Shown: one piece after another, positions 40,904 to 60,022 of the stretch
Position numbering within the stretch: position 1 is the first letter of the stretch
Layout of the letters: every line of letters starts with the position of its first letter
DNA from: an uncultured Colwellia sp.
Lineage (GTDB): Bacteria > Pseudomonadota > Gammaproteobacteria > Enterobacterales > Alteromonadaceae
NCBI GenBank assembly: GCA_913062815.1
Contig: CAJXWZ010000012.1
Coordinates: 62,001 to 126,000 of the forward strand
Length of the DNA: 64,000 nucleotides
Direction: 5' to 3'
The notes under the pieces: generated by a model
Told to the model about the DNA's origin: nothing
Databases searched by the model: none
What the model saw: the letters and a program-made list of their open reading frames with translations, nothing else
Program-made: the position numbers and the translations under genes

Positions 40904-40980
40904 GGCCCCTTAGCTCAGTTGGTTAGAGCGCCCGACTCATAATCGGTAGGTCCTGTGTTCAAATCACAGAGGGGCCACCA
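40904..40980 (+). tRNA. tRNA-Ile2 (anticodon CAT, lysidine-type); island attachment site
   Basis: GGCCCCT acceptor pairing with AGGGGCC, CCA end, CTCATAA anticodon loop, T-arm CTGTG-TTCAAAT-CACAG; body resembles tRNA-Ile2 more than elongator tRNA-Met. Confidence 0.93.
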
Positions 40981-40981
40981 T
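40958..40981 (+). repeat. attL (within tRNA 3' end)
   Basis: 24-bp exact match to 59999-60022. Confidence 0.92.
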
Positions 40982-41158: not shown

Positions 41159-42403
41159 ATGGCTAGAATGACTAAACCGTTAACTAATACAGAAATCAAA
41201 CAAGCAAAGGCTAAAGAAAAAGAATATAGCCTTAATGATGGTAATGGACTCAGTCTTCGCATAAAGCCCAACGGTTCAAAACTATGGATATTTAATTATT
41301 TTCGACCATATACTAAAAAAAGATCGAATATTAGTTTTGGTAAATATCCAGAATTAACATTAGCTGAAGTTAGAAAGAAAAAAGAAGAAGCTAGAAACTT
41401 ATTGGCTCAGGATATTGACCCAAAAACTCATAAAGCTGAAGAATCTGAGAAGCAAAAAGAAGCTCTAGAGAATACTTTTTTTGTACATACAGCTAAGTGG
41501 TATGAATTAAAAAAGACTCAGGTTCAATTGTCTACCGCGGAGCAAGCCTGGAATAATCTCAATAGACATGTGCTTCCTGAGTTAGGCAATATTCCAGTGC
41601 ACTTAATAAAGCCAAAGCTTGTGATTGATATACTCAAGCCTGTGGTAAATAAAGGTAGCTATGAAACAGTTAAACGCCTTTGTCGAGGCATAAATGAAAT
41701 AATGCGTTTAGCGGTTGCATCAGGTGCAATTGAAGTAAATTACCTAGCTGATATAACTAAACTATTTCCTGCCCCAGTAAAAACTAATATGGCCACAATA
41801 GAGCCTAGTAGATTGCCTGAATTAATGCGCGCTATTGTTAACTCAAATATTTATCGTAACACTCGTTGTTTAATGGAGTGGCAACTCCATACAATGACTC
41901 GCCCGGTTGAAGCTGCCACAGCTCGCTGGGAGGATATAGATTTTGAGAAGAAGGTGTGGGTAATACCAGAAGAGCGAATGAAAATGAAAAAGCCCCACAC
42001 AATACCATTAACTCCGCAAACTTTAGCCCTGCTAGAAGTGATTAGATCAATTAGTGGCCATAGAGAATACTTGTTTCCTAATTTACGAAACCCAAGAGAA
42101 CATGCTAATAGTCAGAGCGTAAATATGGCACTTAAACGCATTGGCTTTGCTGGCCAACTTGTATCACATGGTATGAGAGCTTTGGCAAGCACTACATTAA
42201 ATGAGCAAGGCTTTGACGCTGATATTATAGAGTCAGCACTTGCACATGTAGACAGAAATGAAGTTAGACGGGCGTATAATCGCGCAGAATACCTAGAGCG
42301 CAGAAGAATTTTAATGTGTTGGTGGTCTGAGCATATAGAAAAAGCTGCTAGCGGTAACATGAGTATGGCCGCAGGAATGAAGAACTTGAAGGTCGTTGTT
42401 TAA
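41159..42403 (+). CDS. P4-type tyrosine site-specific integrase (DUF4102 N-terminus)
   Basis: LNDGNGLSLRIKPNGSKLWIFNYFRPYTKKRSNISFGKYPELTLAEVR; catalytic region RPVEAATARWEDID, SHGMRALASTTLNE, RAYNRAEYLERRR. Confidence 0.96.
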   Translation: MARMTKPLTNTEIKQAKAKEKEYSLNDGNGLSLRIKPNGSKLWIFNYFRPYTKKRSNISFGKYPELTLAEVRKKKEEARNLLAQDIDPKTHKAEESEKQKEALENTFFVHTAKWYELKKTQVQLSTAEQAWNNLNRHVLPELGNIPVHLIKPKLVIDILKPVVNKGSYETVKRLCRGINEIMRLAVASGAIEVNYLADITKLFPAPVKTNMATIEPSRLPELMRAIVNSNIYRNTRCLMEWQLHTMTRPVEAATARWEDIDFEKKVWVIPEERMKMKKPHTIPLTPQTLALLEVIRSISGHREYLFPNLRNPREHANSQSVNMALKRIGFAGQLVSHGMRALASTTLNEQGFDADIIESALAHVDRNEVRRAYNRAEYLERRRILMCWWSEHIEKAASGNMSMAAGMKNLKVVV

Positions 42404-42875: not shown

Positions 42876-44227
42876 TTATTTTGCTAACAGCACTTTGTGG
42901 TTAGCAAATTTTAAAGTTTGCTTTAACGATTTTGCGATCTTTTCGATCATTTCATCAATTTGTGCTTTAGTAACAATTAAAGGAGGACAAAAAGCGAGAG
43001 AAGAACCCGCAATAGCTCGGCATATTAAACCGTTATTTTGACAAGCCTGCATGGCAAAATTTCCGACCATAGCATTAGGGAAAGCTAAACCCGTTTCTTT
43101 ATTTGCAACCAATTCAATCGCAGCAATCATCCCTTTACCACGCACTTCCCCTACTAAAGGGTGATCACAAAACTCTCGTAAACGTTTTTGCATGTAAGAT
43201 CCTATTTGACCTGCATGTTCAAATAGATTGTCTCGTTGGTATATTTCTAAAGTCTTTAGAGCTACAGCACAAGCTACAGGATGTCCAGAGTAGGTATATC
43301 CATGACCAAAAAACCCAACTTTGCTACTGGGTTCTATCATTGCATCGTACATATCACCACGGATGACAGAAGCACTTATTGGCATATAGGCAGATGATAA
43401 TTGCTTTGCCAATGTCATCATATCTGGCTTGGTGATACCCATAGTTGTACAACCAAAATCATTACCTGTTCTACCAAATGCCGTGATCACTTCATCAGCC
43501 CAGAATAAAATATCGTACTTTTTCAATACTGCTTGCACTTTCTGGTAATAGCCTATTGGAGGTACTATTACACCACTTGCACCCGTAATTGGCTCAACGA
43601 TAAATGCTGCAATTGTATCAGGCCCTTCTTGCAAAATAAGCTGCTCTAAATTGTTAACAATACGGTCAACAAACTGCGCTTCAGTTTCATTATCTAATGC
43701 ATTACGATAATAATGCGGAGCATCAGTTCGTAAAACACCTAGTGCGTCAAATGGCAAATCAAAATGAGTATGGTTAGCAGTCAAGCCGGTTAAAGAAGCT
43801 GAAGCGACAGTAACTCCGTGATATGAGCGTTCGCGAGCAATAATTTTATATTTTTGAGGCTTACCAATAGCATTAAAGTAATATCGCAACATTTTAATAT
43901 GCGTATCATTAGCATCACTGCCAGAGTTACCAAAAAACACCTTGGCATTTTCTACCGGCACCATAGCTGATAGTTTTTCAGCTAAATCAATGCCTACTTG
44001 ATGAGTTTTCCGCCAAACATATGTGAATAAGACAACTTACTCATTTGTTCACTAGTTGTCGCAATTAATTCACGATTGTTATACCCCAACGAAGTGCACC
44101 ATAAGCCAGCTAAGCCTTCGAGGTATTGCTTACCACTATTATCGTAAACATAAGCACCATCACCTCGTTCAATAATTAGCGCCTCTGTTTGTTGAAAGTT
44201 CGTAGTTGGATAAATAATTGGACTCAT
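42876..44227 (-). pseudogene. Class-III (PLP-dependent) aminotransferase, omega-amino acid transaminase-like, disrupted by a single frameshift near 44010
   Basis: Two consecutive ORFs (43994..44239 and 42876..43964) align as one protein: ...LSYSHMFGGK / THQVGIDLAEKLSAMVPVENAKVFFGNSGSDAND...; loss of one A in a poly-A run. Confidence 0.88.
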
Positions 44228-44495
44228 AATTCTTCTCATATAGAACGATTAGCGGGGAGTAACCCGCATAAAAATGTCATGTTAATTTATGTAGACTTAC
44301 GCTTAAGCAAAGCGTAAATCTACAATTTTATTGGTATAGAAAATCCTGACCTGTAAAGTAAACAAGTCCGAAAAATGATGTTTTTAAAGATTACTGGTTA
44401 GGCAAGGTTGATGCTGCTTTGCTAGCACGTTAAAAAGCTCGGAAAACTTATTTACCCCTTCGCCATACAGAATTAAGCAACAATTTTGATTGTCA

Positions 44496-45410
44496 TTACA
44501 AGGTTCCTGATACAGAAGTATATTGCATACGACAAAATGAAATAAATTCTTTTAACAATTTACTTGATGCTTGCTTACTTGACCACATTAACCCCGTGTC
44601 CATAGAGGGGATTTTTTCATGAATCTCTATTGTTTCTATTCGATCGCCATCTATAGACCAAGGCCTGTACACCATGTCAGAAAGTATAGTCACGCCAGTT
44701 CCTGTAGCGACCAAATTTCGAACAGATTCCAGCATAGCCGTTTTAAAAATTACTTGGGGAGTTAAATCATATTTGTGCCAATAACTGTTAGTTGTTGCAG
44801 CAGATTCATCAATATCTAACAATATATAAGGCTCCTGACTAATATCTTGCAAGGTTACAATATCTTTTCTTAACAGCGGGTGATTTGCAGCCACCCATAA
44901 ACGGCGTTGAGAACTCATTAATGGGATGACATTTATATTTTTACGAGAGCGAAGGTTAGAAACTAATAGTATTGCAATATCGAGTTCACCATCGCTTATT
45001 TTTTTTTGAAGAATAGTTCTAGGGTGTTCTTCAAATTCAATTGTTGCTTTTGGAAACATCCGATGAAAACGATGTATAAATGGTGAAAGAAAATAGCCAG
45101 AAACAGTGTTTGTCACACCTAGCTTAATATTACCACTGATTAATTGCTGGTCAGAATTCAAGCATTCTTTTGCAGCACTTATGTCAGTCAAAATCCGCTT
45201 TGCATATGATAAGAAACGGTAACCTTCAGGCGTCAAATCAAGTCCACTTCGGGAACGGGTAAATAACTTTTGCCCTAAAAAATGTTCTAGTTCTTTAATT
45301 GCTTCAGTAACAGATGAAGCAGATATATTGACCGCAATCGCTGCATCTGAAACTTTTCCTGTATCAACTACCGCTAAAAAATAGCGTAATTGCTTAAAAG
45401 TAAATGCCAT
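44496..45410 (-). CDS. LysR family transcriptional regulator
   Basis: FTFKQLRYFLAVVDTGKVSDAAIAVNISASSVTEAIKELEHFLGQKLFTRSRSGLDLTPEG. Confidence 0.95.
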   Translation of the reverse strand: MAFTFKQLRYFLAVVDTGKVSDAAIAVNISASSVTEAIKELEHFLGQKLFTRSRSGLDLTPEGYRFLSYAKRILTDISAAKECLNSDQQLISGNIKLGVTNTVSGYFLSPFIHRFHRMFPKATIEFEEHPRTILQKKISDGELDIAILLVSNLRSRKNINVIPLMSSQRRLWVAANHPLLRKDIVTLQDISQEPYILLDIDESAATTNSYWHKYDLTPQVIFKTAMLESVRNLVATGTGVTILSDMVYRPWSIDGDRIETIEIHEKIPSMDTGLMWSSKQASSKLLKEFISFCRMQYTSVSGTL

Positions 45411-45583: not shown

Positions 45584-48073
45584 ATGAATAAGTATATAAA
45601 TAAACACTACAGTGCAAGTAAATCTCTGCTTGCCGTGGCTATTTCTTTAGCCATTAATGTTCCTGTCTATGCTGAAGAGCCGGAAACTTCAACTAGCCAA
45701 GATGAATTAGTTAAAAATAACGTGTCAGAAAAAGAGTCAAAGAAAAAAGAATCGTTATTGATGGAAAAAATTGTTGTTACAGCGCAGAAGCGAGTTGAAT
45801 CAGTACAAAGTGTTGGTATTGCGATTACCGCTTTTAATGGCGATCAGCTTGAACAGTTAGGCGTAGAAAATAGCACTGACATTGCCAAGTTCACCCCAGG
45901 TGTTTCTTTGTCAGGTAGCTTTGCTGGGCAACAACAGCAATTTTCAATTCGAGGTGTGACGCAAAATGACTTCAATGATCATGTTGAGTCGCCAAATGCT
46001 ATTTATATTGATGAAGGTTATGTTGCTATGCAGCAGGGGCAAATATTTGGGACCTTCGATTTAGAAAGGGTTGAAGTACTTAAAGGTCCACAAGGCACAT
46101 TGTTTGGACGAAATGCCACCGGTGGTTTGGTCAGTTTTGTTACAAAAAAACCGACAGAGGATTTAGAAGGTTATATTGATTTAACGTTAGGCTCTTACAA
46201 CCAAAAAAAATTAGAGGGAGCAATTTCAGGCCCGATAACCGATGAACTTAGCTATCGGGTTGCAGGATTTTACAATGAGCAAGATGGTTATTTAAATAAT
46301 CATTTTCCAGAAACAACCTATGTTCCAGCTGAGTTTGAAGGCAATCTAAGCAATGGTCCTGCATTACCTAATTCAGGTGCTGACTTAGGTGGAGATGAAA
46401 GTTGGGCAGTAAGGACGCATCTTCTTTATAAAATTTCAGATGAGTCAGAATTATTAATGTCTGCATTTTTGACCCGTTCAACCCAATCTACTGGCCCCTA
46501 TCAGTCATCACCTGTTATCGCCGAATTAGATGAGCTTGGCCGTACCATAAATACCTACCGAGTCTCTGCTGACGAAACACGTGAATTTATCCACCCAACC
46601 AATCCTAATTACGATAATGGTTTTGATAATGATTTTGATGGCGTTCGCCCTGTTCCTGGCGGTGATTTCTACGGTTATATAGATCCCGATGGTAATGATT
46701 TTAATACCTCTAGTGACTTTGCCTTTGATGATTCAAACACTTATGAAACTTATGGCACAACAATTAACTATTTTTATGATTTTGATGATATTACCTTCAC
46801 GGCGATAACAGATTTTAAACATCATGATAAATTTACCGTATTAGACTTAGAGGCCGCGCCAGAAAGTCAATTTACTTGGTTTGGTGAAGCCGATATTGAT
46901 TCTTTTACGCAGGAGTTACGTCTTGACGGTGGCAATGACGATCAGCATTGGGTTGCCGGATTGTATTTTCTTGATATCGATGCCTTAAGCATTACCGGAT
47001 TAAGTGCTTTAGCCAATGGTACCGTATTACCTGAATATGGATTTACCGATTTTGATGAGCCACGTATCGCACACCTGAAAACACGTTCATATTCTATATT
47101 TGGTCAAATTGAAAATGCATTATCTGAAAATGTAAAATTAATTACCGGTTTAAGAGCTACTGAAGAGCAGAAAGATTACTTTTTTGATGTGCGCTATGCC
47201 GGTAATAACAGCGAACCCTTAGCTTGGGATCAAGATGCACTGAATGCGGGTAGTTCAAGAGCAACAGGTGCTTTTAATGACGATACTAGCCAAACCCTTA
47301 TTACCGGTAAAGTTCAGTTGGACTGGCAGTTAAGTAGAGACGTGCTGGTTTACACGGGTTATAACCGTGGTGTTAAAGCAGGCAGTTTTAATTCAAGTGG
47401 TGCGGGCCTAGCGGATAGTGATGTTCCTTACGACGACGAAGTATTAAGTGCTTATGAAATAGGTTTTAAATCTGTTTTTTGGGACAATACGGTTAAGTTT
47501 AATACCGCTGCTTACTATTATGACTACAAAGATTATCAAGCTTCTCGTTGGGATGGTTTGGGCAATGTTATAACTAATAATGATTCTGTTATCAAAGGCT
47601 TAGAATTTGAATTAGCGGCATCTCCTATCGATGGTTTAGATTTAATGCTTAATGTTGGCTTAATTGATGCGGTAGTTAAAGACCTCGATTTGGTTGGCGA
47701 TGGCTCCGTTTTAAAAGATGTCAGGCCAACATTTTCACCTGAGCAAACCGTTACTGGTTTAGCTCGTTATACCCTTTTTGACTTCGCTGGCGGTGATTTA
47801 ACCTTCCAAGCGAGCGCAAGTTATCAATCTAGTATTTATTCTAATTTATCCAACTTTGATTCAACTGAATTTGATAGCTGGACCGTTGTGGATGGCTTAG
47901 TTAGCTGGATGAGTGTAGATGAAACTTGGTCGGTTGATATTTTTGTTAAAAACATGTTTGACGAACGTTATAACACCATTGGCTTCGATCTAGCGGGCGT
48001 GTGTGGTTGTAATGAAGAAGCACAGGGTAAACCACGCTGGGTAGGCCTTTCTGTTAAATATAACTACTTCTAA
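45584..48073 (+). CDS. TonB-dependent receptor
   Basis: Signal peptide; plug EKIVVTAQKRVESVQSVGIAITAFNGDQL, VEVLKGPQGTLFGRNATGGLVSFVTKKP; C-terminal beta-strand ending YNYF. Confidence 0.95.
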   Translation: MNKYINKHYSASKSLLAVAISLAINVPVYAEEPETSTSQDELVKNNVSEKESKKKESLLMEKIVVTAQKRVESVQSVGIAITAFNGDQLEQLGVENSTDIAKFTPGVSLSGSFAGQQQQFSIRGVTQNDFNDHVESPNAIYIDEGYVAMQQGQIFGTFDLERVEVLKGPQGTLFGRNATGGLVSFVTKKPTEDLEGYIDLTLGSYNQKKLEGAISGPITDELSYRVAGFYNEQDGYLNNHFPETTYVPAEFEGNLSNGPALPNSGADLGGDESWAVRTHLLYKISDESELLMSAFLTRSTQSTGPYQSSPVIAELDELGRTINTYRVSADETREFIHPTNPNYDNGFDNDFDGVRPVPGGDFYGYIDPDGNDFNTSSDFAFDDSNTYETYGTTINYFYDFDDITFTAITDFKHHDKFTVLDLEAAPESQFTWFGEADIDSFTQELRLDGGNDDQHWVAGLYFLDIDALSITGLSALANGTVLPEYGFTDFDEPRIAHLKTRSYSIFGQIENALSENVKLITGLRATEEQKDYFFDVRYAGNNSEPLAWDQDALNAGSSRATGAFNDDTSQTLITGKVQLDWQLSRDVLVYTGYNRGVKAGSFNSSGAGLADSDVPYDDEVLSAYEIGFKSVFWDNTVKFNTAAYYYDYKDYQASRWDGLGNVITNNDSVIKGLEFELAASPIDGLDLMLNVGLIDAVVKDLDLVGDGSVLKDVRPTFSPEQTVTGLARYTLFDFAGGDLTFQASASYQSSIYSNLSNFDSTEFDSWTVVDGLVSWMSVDETWSVDIFVKNMFDERYNTIGFDLAGVCGCNEEAQGKPRWVGLSVKYNYF

Positions 48074-48087
48074 GAGGAGAAATTATC

Positions 48088-49473
48088 ATGGCTGGATTAA
48101 TAAATTCAACTGATAAAACGCACAATAATGATCCTGATTTTTCAACGTCAGTAGTGCCTGAATACGCACGAATGTCAAAAGTTTCACTGACAATGGCCTG
48201 GTGGGCATTATGCAGTGCGATGATCTGGCTATTGGTAAGTGCAACATTAGCCATGAGTTACGGTACAAAAAATGCCATCACAGGTTTGGTATTTTCCGTA
48301 CTCACTTATGGAGTAATTAATAGTGTCATAAGTAAGTATGCAATAAAAACGGGGCTATCCGTTGGACTGTTCTCTCGTAAAGTGTATGGCAATGTGGGTG
48401 AACTATTGGCGACAGGAATATTTGCCACCATTGCTATTTATTACTGTGTTTTTGAGGGCTCAGTAATTGCAGTAGCCATTCAACATTACTTCTCGCAATT
48501 AGAATTATGGCACGCCTACTTAATTGTGGTGCTTTACAGTGTGCCCTTAGTTTTTGGTGGAGTTGGTCAATGGCTAGATAAATTTAATGGCGTATTATTA
48601 CCTTTTTACTATATTGGTTTGTTTGCTGCTGTTGTTCTAACCGTGAGTCAATATGGCTACACTGACCAATGGCTAAATTTAGGTCCAACAGGCGCTACAC
48701 TAGATGGAGGTTGGTGGTCATGCTATAGCTATTTTATGGGGCTATGGGTAATGATGATGTATACCTGGGATTATGCTCGTTTTGGTAAAAAAGAAGATAC
48801 GAAATATCATAGTAAATTTAATTTTGGTATTCCCTTTTATCTTTGTACCTATTTACTCAATGGTGTCATTGGTATTTATTTGGTGGCTACTATTCCATCG
48901 GAAGGAGCATTATCTGAGATATCTATTGTGCTAGCAATCTTAAAGCTTATGGGGTTTATGGGGCTAATCTTTATCTGGATCAGTCAAACGAGAATTAATA
49001 CCGCCAACTTTCAACTCGCAACGGTTAATCTTCAATCGTTTTTATATCGTATTTTGAAGGTCAAACTCAGTAAAATTACAGTGGCAATTTTAGTTGGTGC
49101 GTTAGTGTTCTCTTTAATGCTTACCGATGTCTTTAGCTTTATTTTACAAGCACTTGCTTATCAAAGTATTTTTGTAGTGTCGTGGGTGGTTATCGCTCTA
49201 ACCTATATCTTCATTCATAGAAAAGACGTGCATGATGAAAACAAGGCAAATGCTTCTTTGGAGCAACAGAATGTAAAAATATGTGGTGTAGTTGCTTGGG
49301 CGAGTTCATCACTAGTGGGTGTAGTCATGCTTAATACCAGCGGTGGTCTTTCACAATATGCATCGCTTGCTACTATCATTGTTGCTGTTGTTATTTATTA
49401 TGTTTTACAAGGTGTTACCGTGAAGTCAGGAAAGAAATCAACTATTTATATAAAGGAAGAAAAATCATGTTAA
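48088..49473 (+). CDS. NCS1-type (purine/cytosine/allantoin-like) permease
   Basis: About 12 TM; SKVSLTMAWWALCSAMIWLLVSATLAMSYGTKNAI; FIWISQTRINTANFQLATVNLQSF. Confidence 0.82.
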   Translation: MAGLINSTDKTHNNDPDFSTSVVPEYARMSKVSLTMAWWALCSAMIWLLVSATLAMSYGTKNAITGLVFSVLTYGVINSVISKYAIKTGLSVGLFSRKVYGNVGELLATGIFATIAIYYCVFEGSVIAVAIQHYFSQLELWHAYLIVVLYSVPLVFGGVGQWLDKFNGVLLPFYYIGLFAAVVLTVSQYGYTDQWLNLGPTGATLDGGWWSCYSYFMGLWVMMMYTWDYARFGKKEDTKYHSKFNFGIPFYLCTYLLNGVIGIYLVATIPSEGALSEISIVLAILKLMGFMGLIFIWISQTRINTANFQLATVNLQSFLYRILKVKLSKITVAILVGALVFSLMLTDVFSFILQALAYQSIFVVSWVVIALTYIFIHRKDVHDENKANASLEQQNVKICGVVAWASSSLVGVVMLNTSGGLSQYASLATIIVAVVIYYVLQGVTVKSGKKSTIYIKEEKSC

Positions 49474-50198
49474 ATATTAATTGTGACATGGGGGAGTCTT
49501 TCGGTATTTACAAAATGGGCGACGATGAGCGGATTATGCCTCATATTACCCATGCAAATGTTGCTTGTGGTATGCATGCTTCTGATCCTAATCATATGCA
49601 AAATACCGTAAAGTTAGCCAAGAGACACGGCGTGAAGGTTGGAGCTCACTTTTCTTTACCCGATTTACAAGGTTTTGGCCGCCGTGAAATGACAATGTCA
49701 CGGGAAGAGCTTAGAAATACTATTCTTTATCAAGTAGGAGCATTAAACGCTTTTTTAGAAAGTGAAAATATGCAATTAAGTCACCTTAAACCTCATGGTG
49801 CACTTTATGGTATGGCGGCTAAACAGGAAGCTACAGCCATGGCGGTTATTGATGTTGCTAAAATTTATAACTTACCTATATACGGTATGATTGATACGAC
49901 TCAACACCTTATGACGATAGAGCACAATGTTCCTTTTGTTGCTGAATTTTTTGCTGACCTTGATTATGCCGCTAATGGTCAATTAATCATTAGCAAAAAA
50001 CACCATGCGGTAAATGCAAAAGAGGTTCGAGCTAAAGTAAGAGATGCAGTGTTACATAACAAAGTTAAAACGGTAGAAGGGGATTACATTAGCACTAAGG
50101 TAGAAACAATTTGTGTTCATTCAGATACGCCCAATGCGCATGAACTAGTAACAGGAATTTCAGATGAACTATTAAATTTGGTGAATAATCATGAATAA
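49467..50198 (+). CDS. pxpA: LamB/YcsF family protein (5-oxoprolinase subunit A-like)
   Basis: LNINCDMGESFGIYKMGDDERIMPHITHANVACGMHASDPNHM, VGAHFSLPDLQGFGRREM. Confidence 0.93.
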   Translation: MLNINCDMGESFGIYKMGDDERIMPHITHANVACGMHASDPNHMQNTVKLAKRHGVKVGAHFSLPDLQGFGRREMTMSREELRNTILYQVGALNAFLESENMQLSHLKPHGALYGMAAKQEATAMAVIDVAKIYNLPIYGMIDTTQHLMTIEHNVPFVAEFFADLDYAANGQLIISKKHHAVNAKEVRAKVRDAVLHNKVKTVEGDYISTKVETICVHSDTPNAHELVTGISDELLNLVNNHE

Positions 50199-51564
50199 AG
50201 TACTTATAGCCAATCGTGGCGAAATCGCATGTCGAATCATTAAAAGTTGCCAGAAACTGGGCATCAAAACGGTTGCGGTATATTCCGAAGCGGATGAAAA
50301 CAGTTTACATAAATCATTGGCTGACGAAGCTATTTGCGTAGGTCCAGCTAAATCAACCGAGAGTTACCTTAATGTACCCGCAGTGTTAAAAGCGGCAGTA
50401 GATACAGGTGCAACTGCAATTCATCCTGGTTATGGTTTTTTAGCTGAAAACACAGATTTTGCTGACAGTATTGTTGCTCAAGGCATGAAGTGGATTGGCC
50501 CAGCACCAGAAACAATATTATTGATGGGTGATAAAGATCGCGCTCGAGCAATAGCACAAGAAGCTGGTGTACCGGTTCTAACAGGTAGCCCTCGATTTGA
50601 AATGGGTGCATTAGAAAATATAGAAGACTATGCCAGCAAAGTAGGTTACCCCTTATTAGTCAAAGCATCGGCTGGTGGTGGCGGTATCGGTATGAAGTTG
50701 GTACTTGATGAGCAAGACTTACTTAAAGTCGCTCAATCAACACAACAACTAGCATTGCGTTCTTTTGGTGACGGTACAATTTTCTTAGAAAGGTATGTAA
50801 AACAAGCACGCCATATTGAGATCCAAATTTTTGGTGATGGTAAAGGTAATGCTATTCATTTGTTTGAGCGAGATTGCTCGATTCAACGGCGCTTTCAAAA
50901 AGTTCTTGAAGAATCACCCGCACCGCATTTAACTGAAGAACTTCGAGATGAAATCGCAGAGAGTGCAGTTAATCTTGCAAAATCACAGCGTTATGCTGGT
51001 GCAGGTACTGTCGAATTTATTTTTGATGATGATACAAAAGATTATTATTTTTTAGAGATGAATACCCGTATTCAAGTTGAACACCCTGTCACTGAAATGG
51101 TTACCGATATGGACTTGGTGGCAATGCAACTTCAGCTTGTATTTGATAACAATTTTCAATTAGAGCAATCTGTTGTTAAACACAAGGGTGTAGCAATAGA
51201 ATGCCGTTTGTATGCTGAAAACCCAAGTAAAATGTTTTTACCTTCACCAGGCACACTAACTACATTGAAATTTCCTAGCGAAAGTAAAAATATTCGTATA
51301 GATACCGGTTTCAGGGAAGGCGATAACGTTACTCCTTATTATGATCCTATGATTTCAAAAGTAATTACTTGGGGGAAAAGCCGTGATGAAGCGATAGCGA
51401 CTATGATTAGTACATTGTCAGAGACTAAAGTAGAAGGGTTATTTACAAATTTACCTTTTTTATTAGATATTTTGAAACACGGTGAATTTCAAAAAGGTCT
51501 TGTTAGTACAAGTTTTATTAAGTTACATGCGCAAGAGTTGAACATTGATGGGAGTAAACTCTAA
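50191..51564 (+). CDS. Biotin carboxylase (AccC-like)
   Basis: KVLIANRGEIACRIIKSCQKLGI, KASAGGGGIGMKLV, FLEMNTRIQVEHPVTEMV. Confidence 0.95.
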   Translation: MNKVLIANRGEIACRIIKSCQKLGIKTVAVYSEADENSLHKSLADEAICVGPAKSTESYLNVPAVLKAAVDTGATAIHPGYGFLAENTDFADSIVAQGMKWIGPAPETILLMGDKDRARAIAQEAGVPVLTGSPRFEMGALENIEDYASKVGYPLLVKASAGGGGIGMKLVLDEQDLLKVAQSTQQLALRSFGDGTIFLERYVKQARHIEIQIFGDGKGNAIHLFERDCSIQRRFQKVLEESPAPHLTEELRDEIAESAVNLAKSQRYAGAGTVEFIFDDDTKDYYFLEMNTRIQVEHPVTEMVTDMDLVAMQLQLVFDNNFQLEQSVVKHKGVAIECRLYAENPSKMFLPSPGTLTTLKFPSESKNIRIDTGFREGDNVTPYYDPMISKVITWGKSRDEAIATMISTLSETKVEGLFTNLPFLLDILKHGEFQKGLVSTSFIKLHAQELNIDGSKL

Positions 51565-52436
51565 TGATTTATGATAAACCACGATTTAGTCCGGGTGGCG
51601 ATCGCTACATTTTGATTGAGTTTGGCGATGAAATGAATCTCACACTCAATTTTAAGGCACAAGCACTAGCCAAGTTATTGGAAGATAATAAGCAACTAGG
51701 TATTATAGAATCAGCACCCTGTTTTGCCTCAATGTTGATTCATTATGAGCCTGAAATTATTGGCTATGACAGTGCTGTCACCTATTTAACCGAACTAATT
51801 TCTGAACTTGGACCAAGTGATGATATTGTGCTCGACAGCCGCATATTTTATATTCCGGCAGTATATTTAGATCCCTGGACGAAAGAAGCTATTGATGATT
51901 ACCGCATTAAAATCAATAATGAAAAAATCTATGATCCCGACTATGTTGCGGAGCTAAATGGCTTAGAAAACGCTCAACAGCTCGCACGGGTGCATTCAGG
52001 AACGGAATATTGGATCTCATCGCTTGGTTTTTGGCCTGGGTTACCCTTTATGATGCCACTTGATCCTCGTTGTAAACTAACGGCACCTAAATATAATCCG
52101 CCTAGAACATGGACGCCTAAAGGTGCAATTGGTATGGGAGGAGCTTCAACAGCTATTTATCCAGAAGCCTTACCAGGAGGTTATCAATTATTTGCTCGTA
52201 CTCCGGTACCTATTTGGGATACATCCAAACGTTTTGATGTTTTTGAAAATAGTATTTGTTTGTTTCAACCAGGTGATAGAGTCAAGTTTGTCCCCTGTGA
52301 TGAAGAAGCGTTTGAGTATTATGAGCAACAAGTTAATGATGGCAGTTATGTTTACAACTTGATTGAGTATCAAAAATTTTCGGTGAAAAATCATAATGAC
52401 TGGGTTAATAATTTAGACATTACAAAAAGGTTTTAG
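51564..52436 (+). CDS. PxpB/KipI-like (AHS1, carboxyltransferase subdomain) protein
   Basis: GDRYILIEFGDEMNLTLNFKAQAL, SLGFWPGLPFMMPLDPRCKLTAPKYNPPRTWTPKGAIGMGGASTAIYPEALPGGYQLFARTP. Confidence 0.9.
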   Translation: MIYDKPRFSPGGDRYILIEFGDEMNLTLNFKAQALAKLLEDNKQLGIIESAPCFASMLIHYEPEIIGYDSAVTYLTELISELGPSDDIVLDSRIFYIPAVYLDPWTKEAIDDYRIKINNEKIYDPDYVAELNGLENAQQLARVHSGTEYWISSLGFWPGLPFMMPLDPRCKLTAPKYNPPRTWTPKGAIGMGGASTAIYPEALPGGYQLFARTPVPIWDTSKRFDVFENSICLFQPGDRVKFVPCDEEAFEYYEQQVNDGSYVYNLIEYQKFSVKNHNDWVNNLDITKRF

Positions 52437-52445
52437 GAGATCATC

Positions 52446-53426
52446 ATGTTTACTGTAATTAAAACAGGTTTAGAAACGTCAGTACAAGATTATCCCGGTC
52501 GACTTGGTTTTAGAAATCAAGGCTTCCCGCCATCAGGCCCTATGGATAGTTGGTCATTTCGTTTAGCCAACAGATTAGTGGGTAACGAGGTAGGAACGGC
52601 TGCTTTAGAATGCCAATATATCGGTCCAACATTAGCTTTTGAACAAGATGCTGTGATAGCGATTACCGGCGCAGATATGACGCCCAAAATAGATGGGGAA
52701 GCAGTGCCAATGTGGACAAGTATCCACATCAAAGCGGGTCAAGAGCTGGCTTTGGCTTTTGCAAAAAAAGGGGTTAGAGCCTATATAGCAATCGCAGGCG
52801 GTATTGACTCAGAACCTTGGCTTGGCTCTCAGTCAACTTTTCATAAGGCTGGAGTAGGTGGTATTGAAGGTCACGCTTTACAAAAAGGACAGCAAATTAA
52901 TTGGCGAGCGGTTGATGTGAATGACACATTAGTTAACCGTAAGGTTAAAAGTGAAGCATTACCCGATATAAATAGCAATAATGCGGTTTCTATCAATGTA
53001 GTCTACGGGCCTAATGTCGGCTGGCTAAATGAAGCTGGTAAAACTAAGTTTTTAAGTGAACCATGGAAATTATCAGGTAAAAGTGATCGAACCGGCTTTC
53101 GTTTAGAGGGCCCTAAACTGTCATTTACCGATAAGGCTCATAATAAACCACCAGAACACGGCAATGAACCATCAAACATTATCGATCAGGGCTACCCTGT
53201 TGGAGGAATAAACTTAGCTGGAGAAACCCCGATCATTTTAGTGAATGATGGGCCTAGCATGGGAGGGTTTATTAACCCTTTTACAGTACCGGGCTGTGAA
53301 TTTTGGAAACTAGCACAAGCAAAACCAGGAACTCAACTATACTTCACAGAAATTACAGTACAACAAGCTCAACTACTTAGTAAAGAGCAATCCGATGCTT
53401 GTGCTGATGATAAAATAACCAAGTAA
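52446..53426 (+). CDS. PxpC/KipA-like (AHS2, biotin-dependent carboxyltransferase) protein
   Basis: KTGLETSVQDYPGRLGFRNQGFPPSGPMDSWSFRLANRLVGNE; SDRTGFRLEGP; PILVNDGPSMGGFINPFTV-type motif. Confidence 0.92.
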   Translation: MFTVIKTGLETSVQDYPGRLGFRNQGFPPSGPMDSWSFRLANRLVGNEVGTAALECQYIGPTLAFEQDAVIAITGADMTPKIDGEAVPMWTSIHIKAGQELALAFAKKGVRAYIAIAGGIDSEPWLGSQSTFHKAGVGGIEGHALQKGQQINWRAVDVNDTLVNRKVKSEALPDINSNNAVSINVVYGPNVGWLNEAGKTKFLSEPWKLSGKSDRTGFRLEGPKLSFTDKAHNKPPEHGNEPSNIIDQGYPVGGINLAGETPIILVNDGPSMGGFINPFTVPGCEFWKLAQAKPGTQLYFTEITVQQAQLLSKEQSDACADDKITK

Positions 53427-53450
53427 CAAAATTCACCAGAGGATATATCT

Positions 53451-53669
53451 ATGGAACATATAACACTACAAACATCAGGTAATATTTGGAAAATATTGGT
53501 AAAAGTTGGTGATAAAGTAGAAGCAGGGGATGTACTTTTTATTATGGAGGTCATGAAGATGGAAGTTGAGCATGAAGCAACTTGCTCGGGTGTAATACGA
53601 GAAATCCATATTAATGAAGGGGATGAGGGCTTGGATGCTGATATGATTGCAATAAGCATTGAGCCATAG
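53451..53669 (+). CDS. Stand-alone biotin carboxyl carrier protein (72 aa)
   Basis: LFIMEVMKMEVEHEATCSGVIREIHINEGDEG; VMKM biotinylation motif, predicted K36. Confidence 0.93.
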   Translation: MEHITLQTSGNIWKILVKVGDKVEAGDVLFIMEVMKMEVEHEATCSGVIREIHINEGDEGLDADMIAISIEP

Positions 53670-53821: not shown

Positions 53822-54856
53822 ATGAAATGGTATTTTATCAATTTTTTTATAATTACAACTTTGCTTTGTACTTTTGCAGAAACTGCTATAGGGGAAAGTT
53901 CATACCTTGTAATTTCAGATGGGAAAAAGATCCATTACTCTCTTTTAAAAAAAACATCAAAAACATGGAAAATTTGTGCATTATTGCCAAATGGCAGGGA
54001 CAAATACTGGTGGGGAGTTTCACATGTATTGAACACTCAAGCTGAAAAATTGAAAGTTAACCTTGCCGTTTATGATGCCGGAAGCTACAACAATATTGAT
54101 TTACAAAAAAAACAACTAAAGCAATGTGAAGATGAAAGTGCCGATGCATTTATAATTGCCGCGGTTGATCCTGAAAAACTAAATTATGAAATAGATAGGT
54201 TAATTGGCCAAGGAAAAATTGTTATTGATTTAATTAATGGTATTGAAAATCCAAATATAACTTCTCATTCAATAGTATCATGGTCAAATGTTGGAAAACT
54301 TGCATTTGATAGTATCATTCAAATTGAAAATGATAGAGAAATCAGCATAGGAGTACTTCCTGGACCTAAAGACTCAAAATGGGTTGAAAGTACTTTTCAA
54401 GCTATTATTAAATCCGCAGAGTTATATCCAAATGTGAAATTGATAAATATAGGTTATGGAGCTACAGAGGCTGGAGAGCAAGCTAGTTTAATAAGGACTT
54501 TTTTTGCAGAAAATAGCGTAGATTATGTTATTTCGAATGCTGTTGCAGCAAATATTATGGTTCATTATAATTCGTTATACGGTGACAACGTTAAGATTAT
54601 TTCTTTTTATTCGAATTTAGAAACGATAGAAAATTTAAAAAATAAATATATAGATGTCACTATCACTGACTTCCCTTTAATTCAGGCAAAGCTAGCCATT
54701 GATTCAGCAATTCGAGCATTAGGAGGAGAAAAAATCCCTTCGGTCATTAGTCCTACAATAAAAGCATTAAAAAATAATAATTTGTCAGAGAGTGATATTC
54801 AAGGAACTTTAAGTACAGGTAAGTGGCTAATCAGAAAAGAATTTACCAAAAACTGA
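53822..54856 (+). CDS. TorT-like periplasmic binding protein, orphan
   Basis: Signal peptide; WKICALLPNGRDKYWWGVSHVLNTQAEKL, VGVLPGPKDSKWVE-type motif. Confidence 0.78.
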   Translation: MKWYFINFFIITTLLCTFAETAIGESSYLVISDGKKIHYSLLKKTSKTWKICALLPNGRDKYWWGVSHVLNTQAEKLKVNLAVYDAGSYNNIDLQKKQLKQCEDESADAFIIAAVDPEKLNYEIDRLIGQGKIVIDLINGIENPNITSHSIVSWSNVGKLAFDSIIQIENDREISIGVLPGPKDSKWVESTFQAIIKSAELYPNVKLINIGYGATEAGEQASLIRTFFAENSVDYVISNAVAANIMVHYNSLYGDNVKIISFYSNLETIENLKNKYIDVTITDFPLIQAKLAIDSAIRALGGEKIPSVISPTIKALKNNNLSESDIQGTLSTGKWLIRKEFTKN

Positions 54857-54960: not shown

Positions 54961-55251
54961 ATAATATCAAACAGACCAAAGGCTAAAGCAACCCTTCAGA
55001 TTGATAATGTGCGTGCCATTATCACCGAGTGGAGGTTTTCTCCTGGGGCTGAGACCGGTTGGCACAAGCATGGTTACGACTATATTGTCGTTCCAAGCAT
55101 GGAAGGAAAACTTCTTATCGAAACTAGCGAAGGTGAAAATGTCGCAGAGCTTGAAGCTGGGCAATCGTATTATAGGTCTGCTGGTGTCGAGCATGATGTC
55201 GTGAATGCTAACGATTATGAATTCTCCTTTGTGGAAATAGAGTTAAAATAG
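54961..55251 (+). CDS. Cupin-domain protein (start codon uncertain)
   Basis: Coding frame continuous from 54961 (ISNRPKAKATLQIDNVRAIITEWRFSPGAETGWHKHGYDYIVVP); SD AAGGAG at 54948-54953; ORF track start is GTG 55009. Confidence 0.75.
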   Translation: MISNRPKAKATLQIDNVRAIITEWRFSPGAETGWHKHGYDYIVVPSMEGKLLIETSEGENVAELEAGQSYYRSAGVEHDVVNANDYEFSFVEIELK

Positions 55252-55743: not shown

Positions 55744-56259
55744 TTAAATCTTTTTCAATCTCGATTGAACAGACGATATTTCAACAATGCAGCGTTTATA
55801 AATGTCACCAATTTTTCCTGCTTTGGAAACTCGAGGACCACTTAAATACACATGGTTATTTCTCTCTAAACTCGCTTCTTTGACCGATAAAGCACAATAC
55901 CAACCATTGTTGTCAGTAAATTCAATAATATCTCCGAAATCGATATTACATACTTTTAAAGCGAATTTGGAAGACGTTAGATTAGATTCTTCTACAAGTA
56001 GATCAGACAGTACATAGAGTTGGTTCACGACCAAATACAGTTGATTTACAATCTTTAGGGCCTCAGGTGATGCTATATCTTTTTCCAACCACTTAAGTGC
56101 TTCTATTCCACTTATAAACTCCTGAATATGTCCGTAATTATTTTCAAAATCGCTTGATTCATTACTTGCATTTTTCATTTCTAACTCAAGTTTTTCTATA
56201 TGCAACATGTCTTCTTTCAGGTTGTCTTTAATAAGGTCTAAATTTTCTAACTTAATCAT
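55744..56259 (-). CDS. Hypothetical protein (overlaps end of rep-like gene)
   Basis: 171 aa; last codons of the rep-like gene overlap its start, suggesting translational coupling. Confidence 0.65.
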   Translation of the reverse strand: MIKLENLDLIKDNLKEDMLHIEKLELEMKNASNESSDFENNYGHIQEFISGIEALKWLEKDIASPEALKIVNQLYLVVNQLYVLSDLLVEESNLTSSKFALKVCNIDFGDIIEFTDNNGWYCALSVKEASLERNNHVYLSGPRVSKAGKIGDIYKRCIVEISSVQSRLKKI

Positions 56260-57244
56260 GACTTTTCCTTTTGCTGTTCATATTATTTTGATCAAAGAAC
56301 TCTACTAATTCTTGTCTTATTTTTTTCAGAGTTATTTCCTCAGGTAATATCACTCCTGATGGATTGCCATCTCTAACCAGCAGGTTTAGTGTTTCAGAAT
56401 CACTTCCTAAAACGTCTCTAATTAGCCTTAATGTTCGTCCTCTTTGCTTACGAGTACACTCTATTTTTTGACTAATGGTCGTGGCAGTTTGAATAGCAGT
56501 AATTCGTTCAATTGAAATTGGAGTCACATTTTTTAATAGTTTTCTATGAGCTTTGGGGTAAGCATCTAAAAAAATACCGTCCGGATTATTTATAGCGGAC
56601 AGAGAAATCCTGATTTTCCCCTGGTTTCTTAAAGTTAACTCATGTCTTACCCATTTTTTGTAATACAGGTGGTAGGACGGAAGTTTTTGTTCTGCAGACT
56701 TATCATAGATTCTAAGTAATTTGTACGAATTGAGGCTACCAATGTACAAAGTTCTTCCTGATGAGAGGTATGTTTTTTTCTGCGGCCTAATTCCTTTAGT
56801 TGAATCATATTGGCCTGCGCTATAGTCTTGTCCGGCTCTTCGTAAGTTATATTTTCCAGTTATGTCGTCAAAACAAATATCAATGCGCCTAATAATTGCC
56901 TGGTGATTTTTACATAGGTCACTAATACATTTAAATCCTTGTGAGTTTAGATTTATTTTCTCACACTGTGCACCATTAAGTTCCAGCTTTATGCATAACC
57001 GCTTAGTACTAAATTTAATACTTCCAGCGGACCTCTTTTTTGAAAGCGAAGAGTGAGAATATAGTAAATAGCCCTTATCAAAAAATGTCATTGAATATGG
57101 CTTTTTACTACTTATTCGAACTCCGTATTGTGTCAATATTTCAATGATCTGCTTTTCCAATAGAATTAAATCCTTTGTTGATTCTTTTCTGAGTTCAATC
57201 GATAGATGATCGATCTTGGTAATATTTCTTATACTATTTGTCAT
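56252..57244 (-). CDS. Rep_trans/RstA-like replication initiation protein
   Basis: IIRRIDICFDDITGKYNLRRAGQDY, KKTYLSSGRTLYIGSLNSYKLLRIYDKSAEQK, YYKKWVRHELTLRNQG. Confidence 0.8.
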   Translation of the reverse strand: MTNSIRNITKIDHLSIELRKESTKDLILLEKQIIEILTQYGVRISSKKPYSMTFFDKGYLLYSHSSLSKKRSAGSIKFSTKRLCIKLELNGAQCEKINLNSQGFKCISDLCKNHQAIIRRIDICFDDITGKYNLRRAGQDYSAGQYDSTKGIRPQKKTYLSSGRTLYIGSLNSYKLLRIYDKSAEQKLPSYHLYYKKWVRHELTLRNQGKIRISLSAINNPDGIFLDAYPKAHRKLLKNVTPISIERITAIQTATTISQKIECTRKQRGRTLRLIRDVLGSDSETLNLLVRDGNPSGVILPEEITLKKIRQELVEFFDQNNMNSKRKSHD

Positions 57245-57331
57245 AATAATCTCATTGAATGAATTACATTAATTTGATGATTTTATTGACATTAAATCTT
57301 GAGTAGAATGGTTTAATGTCAGCCTTATTAT

Positions 57332-57520
57332 CTAGTCATTAGCTGCTGAACTTTTGATGTGGTCTTGCATCCATTGCTCTACAGAGTCGCTATTCCATAC
57401 CACCGCTCGAGCACCTATTTTTATATTTTGAGGAAATCGGCCATCCTTCATCATTGCGTAGATGGAGCTTTTCTTGAAGCCAGTTAGTTCTTCAACATAA
57501 GGCAATTTTATGAATTTCAT
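57332..57520 (-). CDS. AlpA family (helix-turn-helix) regulator/excisionase
   Basis: MKFIKLPYVEELTGFKKSSIYAMMKDGRFPQNIKIGARAVVWNSDSVEQWMQDHI. Confidence 0.9.
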   Translation of the reverse strand: MKFIKLPYVEELTGFKKSSIYAMMKDGRFPQNIKIGARAVVWNSDSVEQWMQDHIKSSAAND

Positions 57521-57612
57521 TATTTTTCTCCAGGGGGCAAAAGCCCCTTTATTCACAATAAATAAATTTTTAAGTTGTAATAGATTTTTGGGTTGTAGTT
57601 AATTCACATTAA

Positions 57613-57981
57613 CTATGGAAAGAGATAGGTGTAAAAGCTGGAGTTGCTACGCTCTGTAATTGTTCTGAACATTGAAATGCTTACTGATATGGCTAAGTAA
57701 TTGCGTAAGCAACCTTCTTCTTCATGTATTGGTTTTAGAGTGACATCTTTTCTCAATTCTATTGAAGTTTGAAGGCAATCGAAGTATTTCTTTTTGTTCG
57801 AACTGTCAGAGCTTGCTACTAGAACATCTGAAATTAGATACCTCAGTAAAATTTGATCAGAAATGAGTCCTAATTTATTTTGCTCAAAATAATAGCTTAG
57901 CTCTTCATAATTAAAACGAATTTGAGGACCTAGAAATCCTTCGGGTAGTAATGTTATTCGATTAAAGCTCATTTTATCCAA
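57613..57981 (-). CDS. Hypothetical protein
   Basis: 122 aa ORF collinear with the other island minus-strand genes. Confidence 0.5.
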   Translation of the reverse strand: MDKMSFNRITLLPEGFLGPQIRFNYEELSYYFEQNKLGLISDQILLRYLISDVLVASSDSSNKKKYFDCLQTSIELRKDVTLKPIHEEEGCLRNYLAISVSISMFRTITERSNSSFYTYLFP

Positions 57982-58116
57982 CTATTGTAACGTTCAAACA
58001 GATCTTATTAAGTCCAAGATGGCCCAACTACGAAAGATGATAAAGAGGGTGCTAAAAAATTGAAAAGATTTTTTTGAGCTGTTTAGTTAAATGTCTATTG
58101 TTCAAGAGATATACTT

Positions 58117-58257
58117 TGATCAATTTTTCTAATAGTTATAATGATCAAATTTTAGTTTTAAGCTAATACATTGTTAATATGAAGGTTATGATGTTTTTGA
58201 TCAGCTCTTTGATTGTTTGGTTAGAAGATGTAATCTCAAAGTCAAAGTATTTGATCA
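58117..58257. repeat. Cluster of four TGATCA palindromes
   Basis: TGATCA at 58117, 58142, 58199 and 58252 in AT-rich sequence between two island genes. Confidence 0.55.
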
Positions 58258-58574
58258 GTTTTTAAGTATCCATTCACGGTTCTTGTAATAAACTTCCTAG
58301 ATAAATTATTTTTTTTAATTCTCTCGTTAAACTCAATTGTCCCTTGGTATCTTTTTTTATGAGCAACATAATCCATAGATATTTCCCCAAAAAGATTCTC
58401 ATCACGAAGTTTAACCTCTTCCAACTGTTCAAAGCATAAAGCTCTATATTCAAAACGGGTTAGTTGGATTTCCAGTGGGATACCAAACAGAACTTTTGCT
58501 CTTCCGCCATGCCTAAGTGCATTAGTGTTTCCTTTAGGTGCGCCAGCACCTGGACGTTTTCCACCTCTTGGCAT
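58242..58574 (-). CDS. Hypothetical protein with phage-type basic Gly-rich N-terminus
   Basis: MPRGGKRPGAGAPKGNTNALRHGG, an N-terminal motif common in phage-associated small terminase-like proteins. Confidence 0.65.
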   Translation of the reverse strand: MPRGGKRPGAGAPKGNTNALRHGGRAKVLFGIPLEIQLTRFEYRALCFEQLEEVKLRDENLFGEISMDYVAHKKRYQGTIEFNERIKKNNLSRKFITRTVNGYLKTDQIL

Positions 58575-58723
58575 TTCTTCCTCACATCAATTAGATTAAA
58601 AAAATAAGGTATCACAGGTTGTTAATTTGTCTGAATTTAACTGAAGAATTATTCTTTAGCTTGTTGATATTTCGAATTTAATACAAGATACTCTCGTGTA
58701 AATTAAAAAATAATTAAAACAGT

Positions 58724-59725
58724 ATGGATACAGTTATGTCTAACCCTTGTGACTATATAAGTGAACAAATTTCTTTAAGTGCTCACGAAACAAAATTACT
58801 AATAAGTTATTCTAGCTTTAACTTTGAGAAGGTATTAACACAAAGTAAAGGAGATATTTTAATTTCCACATATACTCCTCCTAGTGGGGACTCTATTCGC
58901 CGGGTTTTGGTTAGCATGGGAGTGCGGCCAATGAAACCTAAAAGAAAACTAAGTTTATTTTGTGATTATGAAGCAAATTTTAAACTTTCATATTATTTAG
59001 GAGAGCTTAAAAGGTCTCTTGATGAGTATTTTGAAACTTCAATCTATTTGTGCACTCGAAATCATTCAAAATTAGTAGTATCCGACGACTTAGTCTACAT
59101 TGGCTCGGCAAACTTTGGTGAATCTACATCAACTAGAATAGAAGCTGGAGTCACTTTGAGCATTGAAGAATGTAGTAACCTTAGAGAAAAAATATACGAT
59201 ACTTTCAGACCAATATCTATAAACTTAGACTCGTTGAGGGGGGATCGATTATTGACGAAAAATTTTTTAAGTTCATGTTCCGAAGTTATTAGTTGTGTAG
59301 ACTCGTTAGTTTCGGAAATGGAAAATCGCTTGTTAACGCCCGATGAGATAAATAAGATAAGAGACAAATTCACAGACATACTCTTCACCATAAGATTAGT
59401 TGAACCTAGATTTTTAACAAATTTTTTCAACATCGAACATCTAGATTTTTATTTAAAAACCTCTTTTATGCCGGTAAAAAAGGTTCATCGCGAATACCTC
59501 AATTATATTGAAAGTAAGAGTGAAGAGCTTAGGTATGAATTACATAATTTGACGATGGATGATTTGGAGCGCCGTATTCCATTTATATTAGAGGAAACTG
59601 AAAAATATAATGAAAAATTAGAAGTTGATATGGGAGTAGCTGAATATAATTTAACGGAGACGTTCAATATCATTGCATCTACATGCACTTTGTTTAAGAA
59701 ATTGGAGTCTAAAAGGTACAAATAG
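58724..59725 (+). CDS. Phospholipase D-like (HKD motif) protein
   Basis: One clear HKD-like motif HSKLVVSDDLVYIGSANFGE plus alpha-helical C-terminus with no recognisable domain. Confidence 0.75.
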   Translation: MDTVMSNPCDYISEQISLSAHETKLLISYSSFNFEKVLTQSKGDILISTYTPPSGDSIRRVLVSMGVRPMKPKRKLSLFCDYEANFKLSYYLGELKRSLDEYFETSIYLCTRNHSKLVVSDDLVYIGSANFGESTSTRIEAGVTLSIEECSNLREKIYDTFRPISINLDSLRGDRLLTKNFLSSCSEVISCVDSLVSEMENRLLTPDEINKIRDKFTDILFTIRLVEPRFLTNFFNIEHLDFYLKTSFMPVKKVHREYLNYIESKSEELRYELHNLTMDDLERRIPFILEETEKYNEKLEVDMGVAEYNLTETFNIIASTCTLFKKLESKRYK

Positions 59726-59919
59726 GTTAAAAGTGATAACAGAGTATTAAGAAACGTCCGATTGATTTCATTATGCAAATGAACATCGACAGCAAATAGC
59801 TGTAGAAATGAAGAAAAACCAAACAAGCCTATGTATAACATAGCTGTAGGTTTAATAGTTAAAAAGAAGTAGTGAAAAATTCGGATGTTTTATGAATAAA
59901 TCGAAATAAGTGATTTATG

Positions 59920-59943
59920 TTTTTAGTAACACTGTAAGTAACA
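59920..59943. promoter_or_regulatory. Right-end copies of the TTTTTAGTAACAC arm-like repeat
   Basis: TTTTTAGTAACAC at 59920-59932, exact 13-bp match to 41101-41113, followed by AAGTAACAT at 59936. Confidence 0.6.
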
Positions 59944-59998
59944 TTTTGCTTGCATGTTTCTGTTTAATTTTATATTTATCAGTGTGTTATTTTTTATA

Positions 59999-60022
59999 TT
60001 CAAATCACAGAGGGGCCACCAT
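59999..60022 (+). repeat. attR (tRNA-Ile2 3'-end fragment)
   Basis: 24-bp exact match to 40958-40981. Confidence 0.92.

Follow-up and report, generated by a model that had tools for sequence, protein, structure and literature searches.

What is a gene for PxpA, a LamB_YcsF-family hydrolase, doing beside genes for a biotin carboxylase (BC) and a biotin carrier? Such a cluster is carried by a mobile island of an uncultured Colwellia sp. (assembly GCA_913062815.1), within a stretch of 64,000 nucleotides of contig CAJXWZ010000012.1 that we analysed in full (hereafter, the window). A preliminary description of this DNA had proposed import and biotin-dependent opening of a lactam, hydantoin or related cyclic amide. 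Sequence comparison supports the core of this proposal, the gene context narrows it to a gamma-lactam as the likeliest substrate, and a frameshifted aminotransferase gene weakens it. With a probability of about 0.6, we suggest that the island carries, by horizontal acquisition, a pathway that takes up and opens a small lactam, the likeliest candidates being 2-pyrrolidinone and close gamma-lactams.

The enzyme genes lie on the forward strand in a compact array that consists of PxpA (49467-50198; PF03746, E = 5.7e-86), BC (50191-51564; a family match with intact catalytic motifs), the two carboxyltransferase (CT) subunits, namely, CT_C_D (AHS1, PxpB-like, of the long urea carboxylase type; 51564-52436; E = 7e-45) and CT_A_B (AHS2, PxpC-like; 52446-53426; E = 6e-85), and a biotin carboxyl carrier protein (BCCP) of 72 amino acids (aa) with the biotin site MEVMKM (53451-53669). 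Upstream on the same strand are genes for a TonB-dependent outer-membrane receptor (45584-48073; a family match, with a 64% identical homologue at the equivalent place in locus L036) and an inner-membrane permease with the NCS1 fold (48088-49473), and a LysR-type regulator is encoded divergently from the operon (44496-45410, reverse strand; 61% identical in L036, the nearest homologous cluster). Among the open reading frames (ORFs) of the window, all eight genes from the LysR gene to the BCCP gene are intact, several with translational overlaps. The genes named in the preliminary description were each recovered as an ORF with a strong family match or, for the permease, a structural one, and the overlaps that it listed (49467/49473, 50191/50198 and 51564) are real by the ORF coordinates. 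PxpA does stand in the hydrolase's place, with no allophanate hydrolase in the cluster, the rest of the genome not having been searched for one.

The earlier view that BC, AHS2, AHS1 and BCCP supply, as separate proteins, the parts of a urea or guanidine carboxylase is borne out by all four matching segments of TIGR02712. These parts score 574, 300, 183 and 49 bits, and the single-chain (~1200 aa) urea carboxylase, for which the cut-off of TIGR02712 is 1303.85, is replaced here by four genes. The CT subunits fit this model better than those of 5-oxoprolinase, with 183 bits for AHS1 against 91.8 for the PxpB model TIGR00370, which is below its cut-off of 145.55, and 300 bits for AHS2 against 184.1 for the PxpC model NF045499, again short of the cut-off (500). 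The CT pair aligns near full length to the Kluyveromyces lactis urea carboxylase, and BC and both CT parts also match the structures 3VA7/5I8I.

Lys1605 of the K. lactis urea carboxylase is thought to be the general base (PMC5770610), and one residue separates urea (Asn) from guanidine (Asp) carboxylases (PMC12186494). In our alignment, the general-base Lys is present in the window, in 73 of 73 relatives and in 28 of 28 urea/guanidine carboxylases, and is replaced by Arg in each of the 34 short PxpB proteins aligned. The discriminating residue, which we take to be residue 1330 of the K. lactis enzyme, an assignment that fits the alignment, is the urea-type Asn in the window and in all 73 relatives; the two ordinary PxpC proteins of the same genome have Gln there. 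In the CT_A_B tree, the window clade is sister to the urea/guanidine carboxylases together with Thermomicrobium (support 0.996), the ordinary PxpC proteins are placed elsewhere, and loci L191-L195 form a clade of their own. By these sequence comparisons, the CT pair is nearer to urea carboxylase than to PxpBC.

The biotin link, previously surmised from the co-encoded genes, is supported by the urea-type CT and by the presence of all BC motifs (MGDK, VKASAGGGG, RHIEIQ, RRFQKV, EMNTRIQVEHP and ECR) and of a biotinylatable Lys in the carrier (MEVMKM; MEVMKT in many other surveyed copies), although co-occurrence alone proves little. As proof of biotin dependence, the joint presence of BC and PxpA was found to be insufficient, given that the Arg-type loci L191-L195, L209, L211 and L214 also have BC nearby. 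In L191-L195, the genes for PxpA, for PxpB and PxpC (mostly fused) and for BC are close together as in the window, but PxpB is of the short Arg type and BC, where read, has 584-608 aa, long enough for a fused carrier. Biotin linkage may thus extend beyond the Lys type. The genome-wide checks, which were family searches of the genome, identified three other BC-domain genes, so the island BC is an additional one.

The proposed mechanism is well supported by sequence comparison and would proceed as follows. The lactam would enter through the TonB receptor and the NCS1 permease; BC, with its intact motifs, is strongly expected to use ATP and bicarbonate to carboxylate the biotin on the 72-aa BCCP; and the CT pair, judging by the Lys, the Asn and the phylogeny, would transfer the carboxyl group onto the lactam nitrogen as urea carboxylase does onto urea. 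PxpA would hydrolyse the resulting N-carboxylactam as allophanate hydrolase does N-carboxyurea, the unstable carbamate would lose CO2 and leave an omega-amino acid, for example gamma-aminobutyric acid (GABA), and a transaminase and a semialdehyde dehydrogenase would feed that product to succinate. This scheme parallels the conversion of urea via allophanate to ammonia in urea amidolyase. The presumed activation step of ordinary PxpABC is, instead, an ATP-driven phosphorylation of the substrate. A course in which a ring amide is first N-carboxylated and then hydrolysed by PxpA draws support from the urea-type CT with its Lys and Asn and from the SAR11-like loci, in which BC is fused to CT_C_D in one protein of 795-829 aa.

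Our best guess for the substrate, moderately supported by the neighbouring genes, is 2-pyrrolidinone (gamma-butyrolactam) or a close gamma-lactam. Within the stretches retrieved around the loci, 9 of the 43 Lys-type loci outside SAR11 have as a neighbour a gene for GABA transaminase (GabT), succinate-semialdehyde dehydrogenase (SSADH) or an aminotransferase of the PRK06105 type, and none of the 38 PxpA loci of other kinds does (Fisher P 0.003, in a test that mixes related loci and compares sets gathered in different ways). GabD and GabT of Arhodomonas, GabT of L047, and SSADH and a PRK06105 aminotransferase of Paracoccus score above the curated cut-offs of their subfamilies or equivalogs; annotated genes for SSADH and GABA transaminase adjoin the loci of Ruegeria TM1040 and Agrobacterium T29, and Rhizobium CIAT894 is a further annotated example of a GABA-pathway gene beside the locus. 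In the CT tree, the neighbouring clade of the window and L036 consists of exactly the gabT-carrying pair L043/L047, with gabD also present in one member. Both the neighbours and this sister clade fit the opening of a lactam to GABA, that is, of 2-pyrrolidinone. In L060, L054 and most of the SAR11-type loci, the opposite strand beside the operon encodes an AttM-type lactonase (397 bits, over the cut-off of 390), an iron alcohol dehydrogenase and a sodium symporter. These genes are only a hint of gamma-butyrolactone use, the dehydrogenase not being specific to 4-hydroxybutyrate (235 of 500 bits).

The same biotin mechanism could act on another ring, such as delta-valerolactam, a hydantoin, a dihydropyrimidine or the lactam product of a molybdenum hydroxylase, which we regard as unlikely but by no means negligible. 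Part of the case comes from transport. The TonB receptor and NCS1 permease do lie upstream of the enzyme genes, as first described, but the window permease matches nothing in Pfam at E values of up to 10, and its assignment to NCS1 required a homologue, L118 (44% identity), that matches PF02133, and an AlphaFold model (mean pLDDT 77) with CodB (E 3.5e-10) and Mhp1 (E 1.1e-8) as the best folds in the PDB. Mhp1 is a hydantoin carrier, and permease homologues in other genomes adjoin HyuA/HyuB or CT genes; those of L112, L116 and L117, of the NCS1 type and next to HyuA/HyuB hydantoinase/oxoprolinase genes, hint at a family of lactam/hydantoin carriers. HyuA/HyuB genes are also neighbours of five loci of the set itself (L050, L072, L102, L173 and L175), and molybdenum hydroxylase genes adjoin the loci of Thermomicrobium, Sulfitobacter and Diaphorobacter. 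In L165, L166, L168 and L205, molybdenum hydroxylase genes of the xanthine dehydrogenase type are found in or beside the operon, and their products could make lactams from cyclic imines. TonB receptors, moreover, often take larger ligands. On the other side, the clade nearest to the window includes gabT, and gabD in one member, and there are no HyuA/HyuB-type subunits among the ORFs of the cluster and neither Hyu nor molybdenum hydroxylase genes in the window around it. Given the Hyu and molybdenum hydroxylase neighbours, the family may serve several ring amides.

Several observations weigh against a pathway for 2-pyrrolidinone in the window. GABA genes are missing from most loci, including the nearest, L036; some relatives adjoin, instead, the Hyu or molybdenum hydroxylase genes that hint at other rings; a molecule of the small size of 2-pyrrolidinone does not usually call for a TonB receptor; and the Lys is no strict mark of biotin dependence, with biotin genes found also beside the Arg-type PxpBC of L191-L195. 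Furthermore, the window's own aminotransferase is broken. The class-III aminotransferase invoked by the preliminary description is present (42876-44239, reverse strand; best match PRK06105) and is a probable former partner of the operon, but it lies outside the range that had been given for the system, is absent from the closest homologous cluster, L036, and contains one frameshift near 44006-44009, at a short A-run, which could be a true mutation or an assembly error. Its value as proof of an omega-amino acid product was downgraded for this frameshift and for the lack of conservation in L036. With the island transaminase frameshifted, a chromosomal enzyme would have to serve the lactam pathway.

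That the cluster is an ordinary ATP-dependent 5-oxoprolinase, PxpABC, beside spare acetyl-CoA carboxylase genes appears improbable. PxpA passes the NCBIfam 5-oxoprolinase subfamily cut-off (NF003814, 263 bits vs 226) and the score of BC approaches that required for the AccC subfamily; however, the CT subunits fall far short of the equivalog cut-offs for PxpB and PxpC, and BC and BCCP genes accompany this type of CT in proteobacteria, actinobacteria and haloarchaea, up to the BC-CT fusion of SAR11. The window-clade PxpA also differs from ordinary PxpA at positions that are fixed in the latter, with Y15 for W, GM for ND at 115-116, L165 for R and S219 for G. Besides its other BC-domain genes, the genome has two further PxpA genes, both in ordinary PxpABC operons that lack BC and BCCP genes (L004 and L005), which implies that the island set is a distinct system and that 5-oxoproline is probably already covered. 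One of these operons (L005:7594-12485) lies, judging by eye, among D-glutamate cyclase-type and D-amino acid transaminase-like genes. In view of the cut-offs, the CT residues, the phylogeny and the BC-CT fusion, we set aside an ordinary PxpABC with stray biotin genes. The replacement of Arg165 by Leu, though attractive as a sign of a substrate that lacks the carboxylate of 5-oxoproline, was not used, because the roseobacter/rhizobium clade retains Arg in 73% despite its GABA neighbours.

An acyclic substrate, processed by a urea- or guanidine-type carboxylase with PxpA in the role of allophanate hydrolase, is marginally less probable still. The CT phylogeny next to the urea carboxylases and Asn1330, as in the urea-specific enzymes, are compatible with it, and the residues would permit the urea type, guanidine enzymes having Asp at this position; the split genes, PxpA, which belongs to a ring-amide hydrolase family, the lack of allophanate hydrolase and of urea or guanidine genes in the cluster, and the GABA-catabolic genes beside relatives all argue otherwise. 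Least probable of all is decaying or non-functional cargo, to which the frameshifted aminotransferase and two unusual residues of PxpA at otherwise near-invariant positions (M36 and F62) might point, against the eight intact genes with their translational overlaps and conserved catalytic motifs, homologues 60-75% identical and in the same order in another genus, and a frameshift that could be an assembly error.

Among known systems, the nearest functional precedent for the lactam pathway is the fungal lamA/lamB pair. LamA is taken to be a urea carboxylase-like biotin protein with BC, CT and BCCP parts. As in the window, the Aspergillus nidulans system includes a protein of the LamB family (Pfam LamB_YcsF), and the tie to GABA transamination is common to the fungal system and the relatives of the window; in contrast, the window has a separate bacterial protein for each part, encoded on a mobile island together with an uptake system of its own for both the outer and the inner membrane. 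The fungal genes are controlled by AmdR together with the GABA transaminase gene gatA (PMC8016842), and a relationship of ycsF to lamB, a gene of 2-pyrrolidinone utilisation, was noted early (PMC3412718). In the literature searched, outside which most papers on the fungal lam genes fall, we found no description of their chemistry.

Compared with PxpABC, to which the window PxpA, AHS1 and AHS2 are homologous, the island adds BC and BCCP, has a long urea-type CT_C_D with Lys for Arg, falls below the PxpB and PxpC cut-offs and differs in the PxpA signature residues. PxpABC is said to have been presented as the prokaryotic 5-oxoprolinase by Niehaus in 2017. A system of this type is pxpTABC of Corynebacterium glutamicum (PMC13274462). 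With urea carboxylase or urea amidolyase (K. lactis; 3VA7, 5I8I) and guanidine carboxylase, the window shares BC, CT_A_B, CT_C_D, BCCP and the general-base Lys, and with the urea enzymes also Asn1330, but it has four chains in place of one of ~1200 aa and PxpA in place of allophanate hydrolase. The caprolactamases CapAB/OplAB/HyuAB open lactams in an ATP-dependent, bicarbonate-linked reaction (PMC8453981) but are unrelated proteins that use no biotin, and none is encoded in the window cluster.

The operon lies inside a region of ~19 kb between 24-bp direct repeats, and the earlier statement that it is island-borne was confirmed by a tRNA-Met, an integrase and the repeat on both sides. The insertion site is the tRNA-Met gene (40904-40980), with the left att-like repeat TTCAAATCACAGAGGGGCCACCAT at its 3' end (40958-40981); the tyrosine integrase follows (41159-42403, forward strand; PF00589, E 1.5e-27; arm-binding domain PF13356), and a direct copy of the repeat marks the island end (59999-60022). 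The G+C content of the island (0.364) is similar to that of the flanks (0.386 and 0.356). Among 295 other genomes of the order, there was no close copy of the CT gene: full-length matches were only 28-35% identical and mostly came from ~1200-aa urea/guanidine carboxylases, with the rest made up of some short proteins of the PxpB type and one separate BC-CT-CT set (L007). In a drawing of 399 genomes of the phylum, E = 1e-55 was passed by two only, the window's genome and one other (49% identity).

The order receptor-permease-enzymes recurs in Pseudomaricurvus alkylphenolicus (L036), with 61-75% identity. Downstream of BCCP, the window encodes two recurrent partners of the gene set that the first reading had missed: a TorT-like periplasmic binding protein (53822-54856, forward strand), which in relatives is the binding protein of an ATP-binding cassette (ABC) transporter of the operon, and a small cupin (54967-55251, forward strand, ORF listed from the GTG at 55009) that shares 58.5% identity with its counterpart next to the L109 cluster. 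The TorT-like protein occurs in 17 of the 43 loci outside SAR11, usually with ABC transporter genes; in the window, it and the cupin remain, the ABC genes are missing, and the TonB receptor and NCS1 permease precede the enzymes. The distal half of the island (55744-60022) has no clear link to the operon; by eye, it includes a replication protein-like ORF (56252-57244), an AlpA-like regulator (57332-57556) and a phospholipase D-like ORF of 333 aa (58724-59725).

A neighbourhood survey of PxpA, BC and BCCP, suggested in the preliminary description, showed that the set recurs widely, in ocean SAR11 and soil bacteria and in haloarchaea; it is not unique to the window and has long been annotated piecemeal. 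Some of the gene calls are based on simple codon-position statistics and are rough in GC-rich loci. A scan of one genome per species yielded 75 loci, about 46 of the AT-rich SAR11 type and the rest mostly from proteobacteria, with a few from actinobacteria and others. A plasmid search added 75 records, those listed having identities of 32-44%; the loci examined, which include Ruegeria, Rhizobium, Agrobacterium, Methylobacterium, Thermomicrobium and haloarchaea, carry PxpA, BCCP and CT genes, with BC in all but Thermomicrobium, and are labelled '5-oxoprolinase subunit PxpA' and 'acetyl-CoA carboxylase'. In the literature searched, which was limited to papers outside subscription and took in little of the work on the fungal lam genes, we found no characterised biotin-linked PxpA in prokaryotes, and neither this gene set nor the identical cluster appears to have been characterised biochemically.

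We see an even chance that the Lys-type combination of PxpA, BC, BCCP and CT represents an unrecognised class of prokaryotic biotin-dependent lactamases, present in SAR11, other proteobacteria, actinobacteria, Thermomicrobium and haloarchaea, that would work by N-carboxylation with later release of CO2. If so, biotin-linked carboxylation would be a second bacterial route, beside phosphorylation, to the opening of stable lactam rings, the fungal lam genes would have a bacterial counterpart amenable to assay, and the current names 5-oxoprolinase and acetyl-CoA carboxylase may be wrong for many genes. Open-ocean SAR11 could then use dissolved lactams and, because SAR11 are among the commonest organisms of the sea, the reaction could matter for dissolved organic nitrogen.

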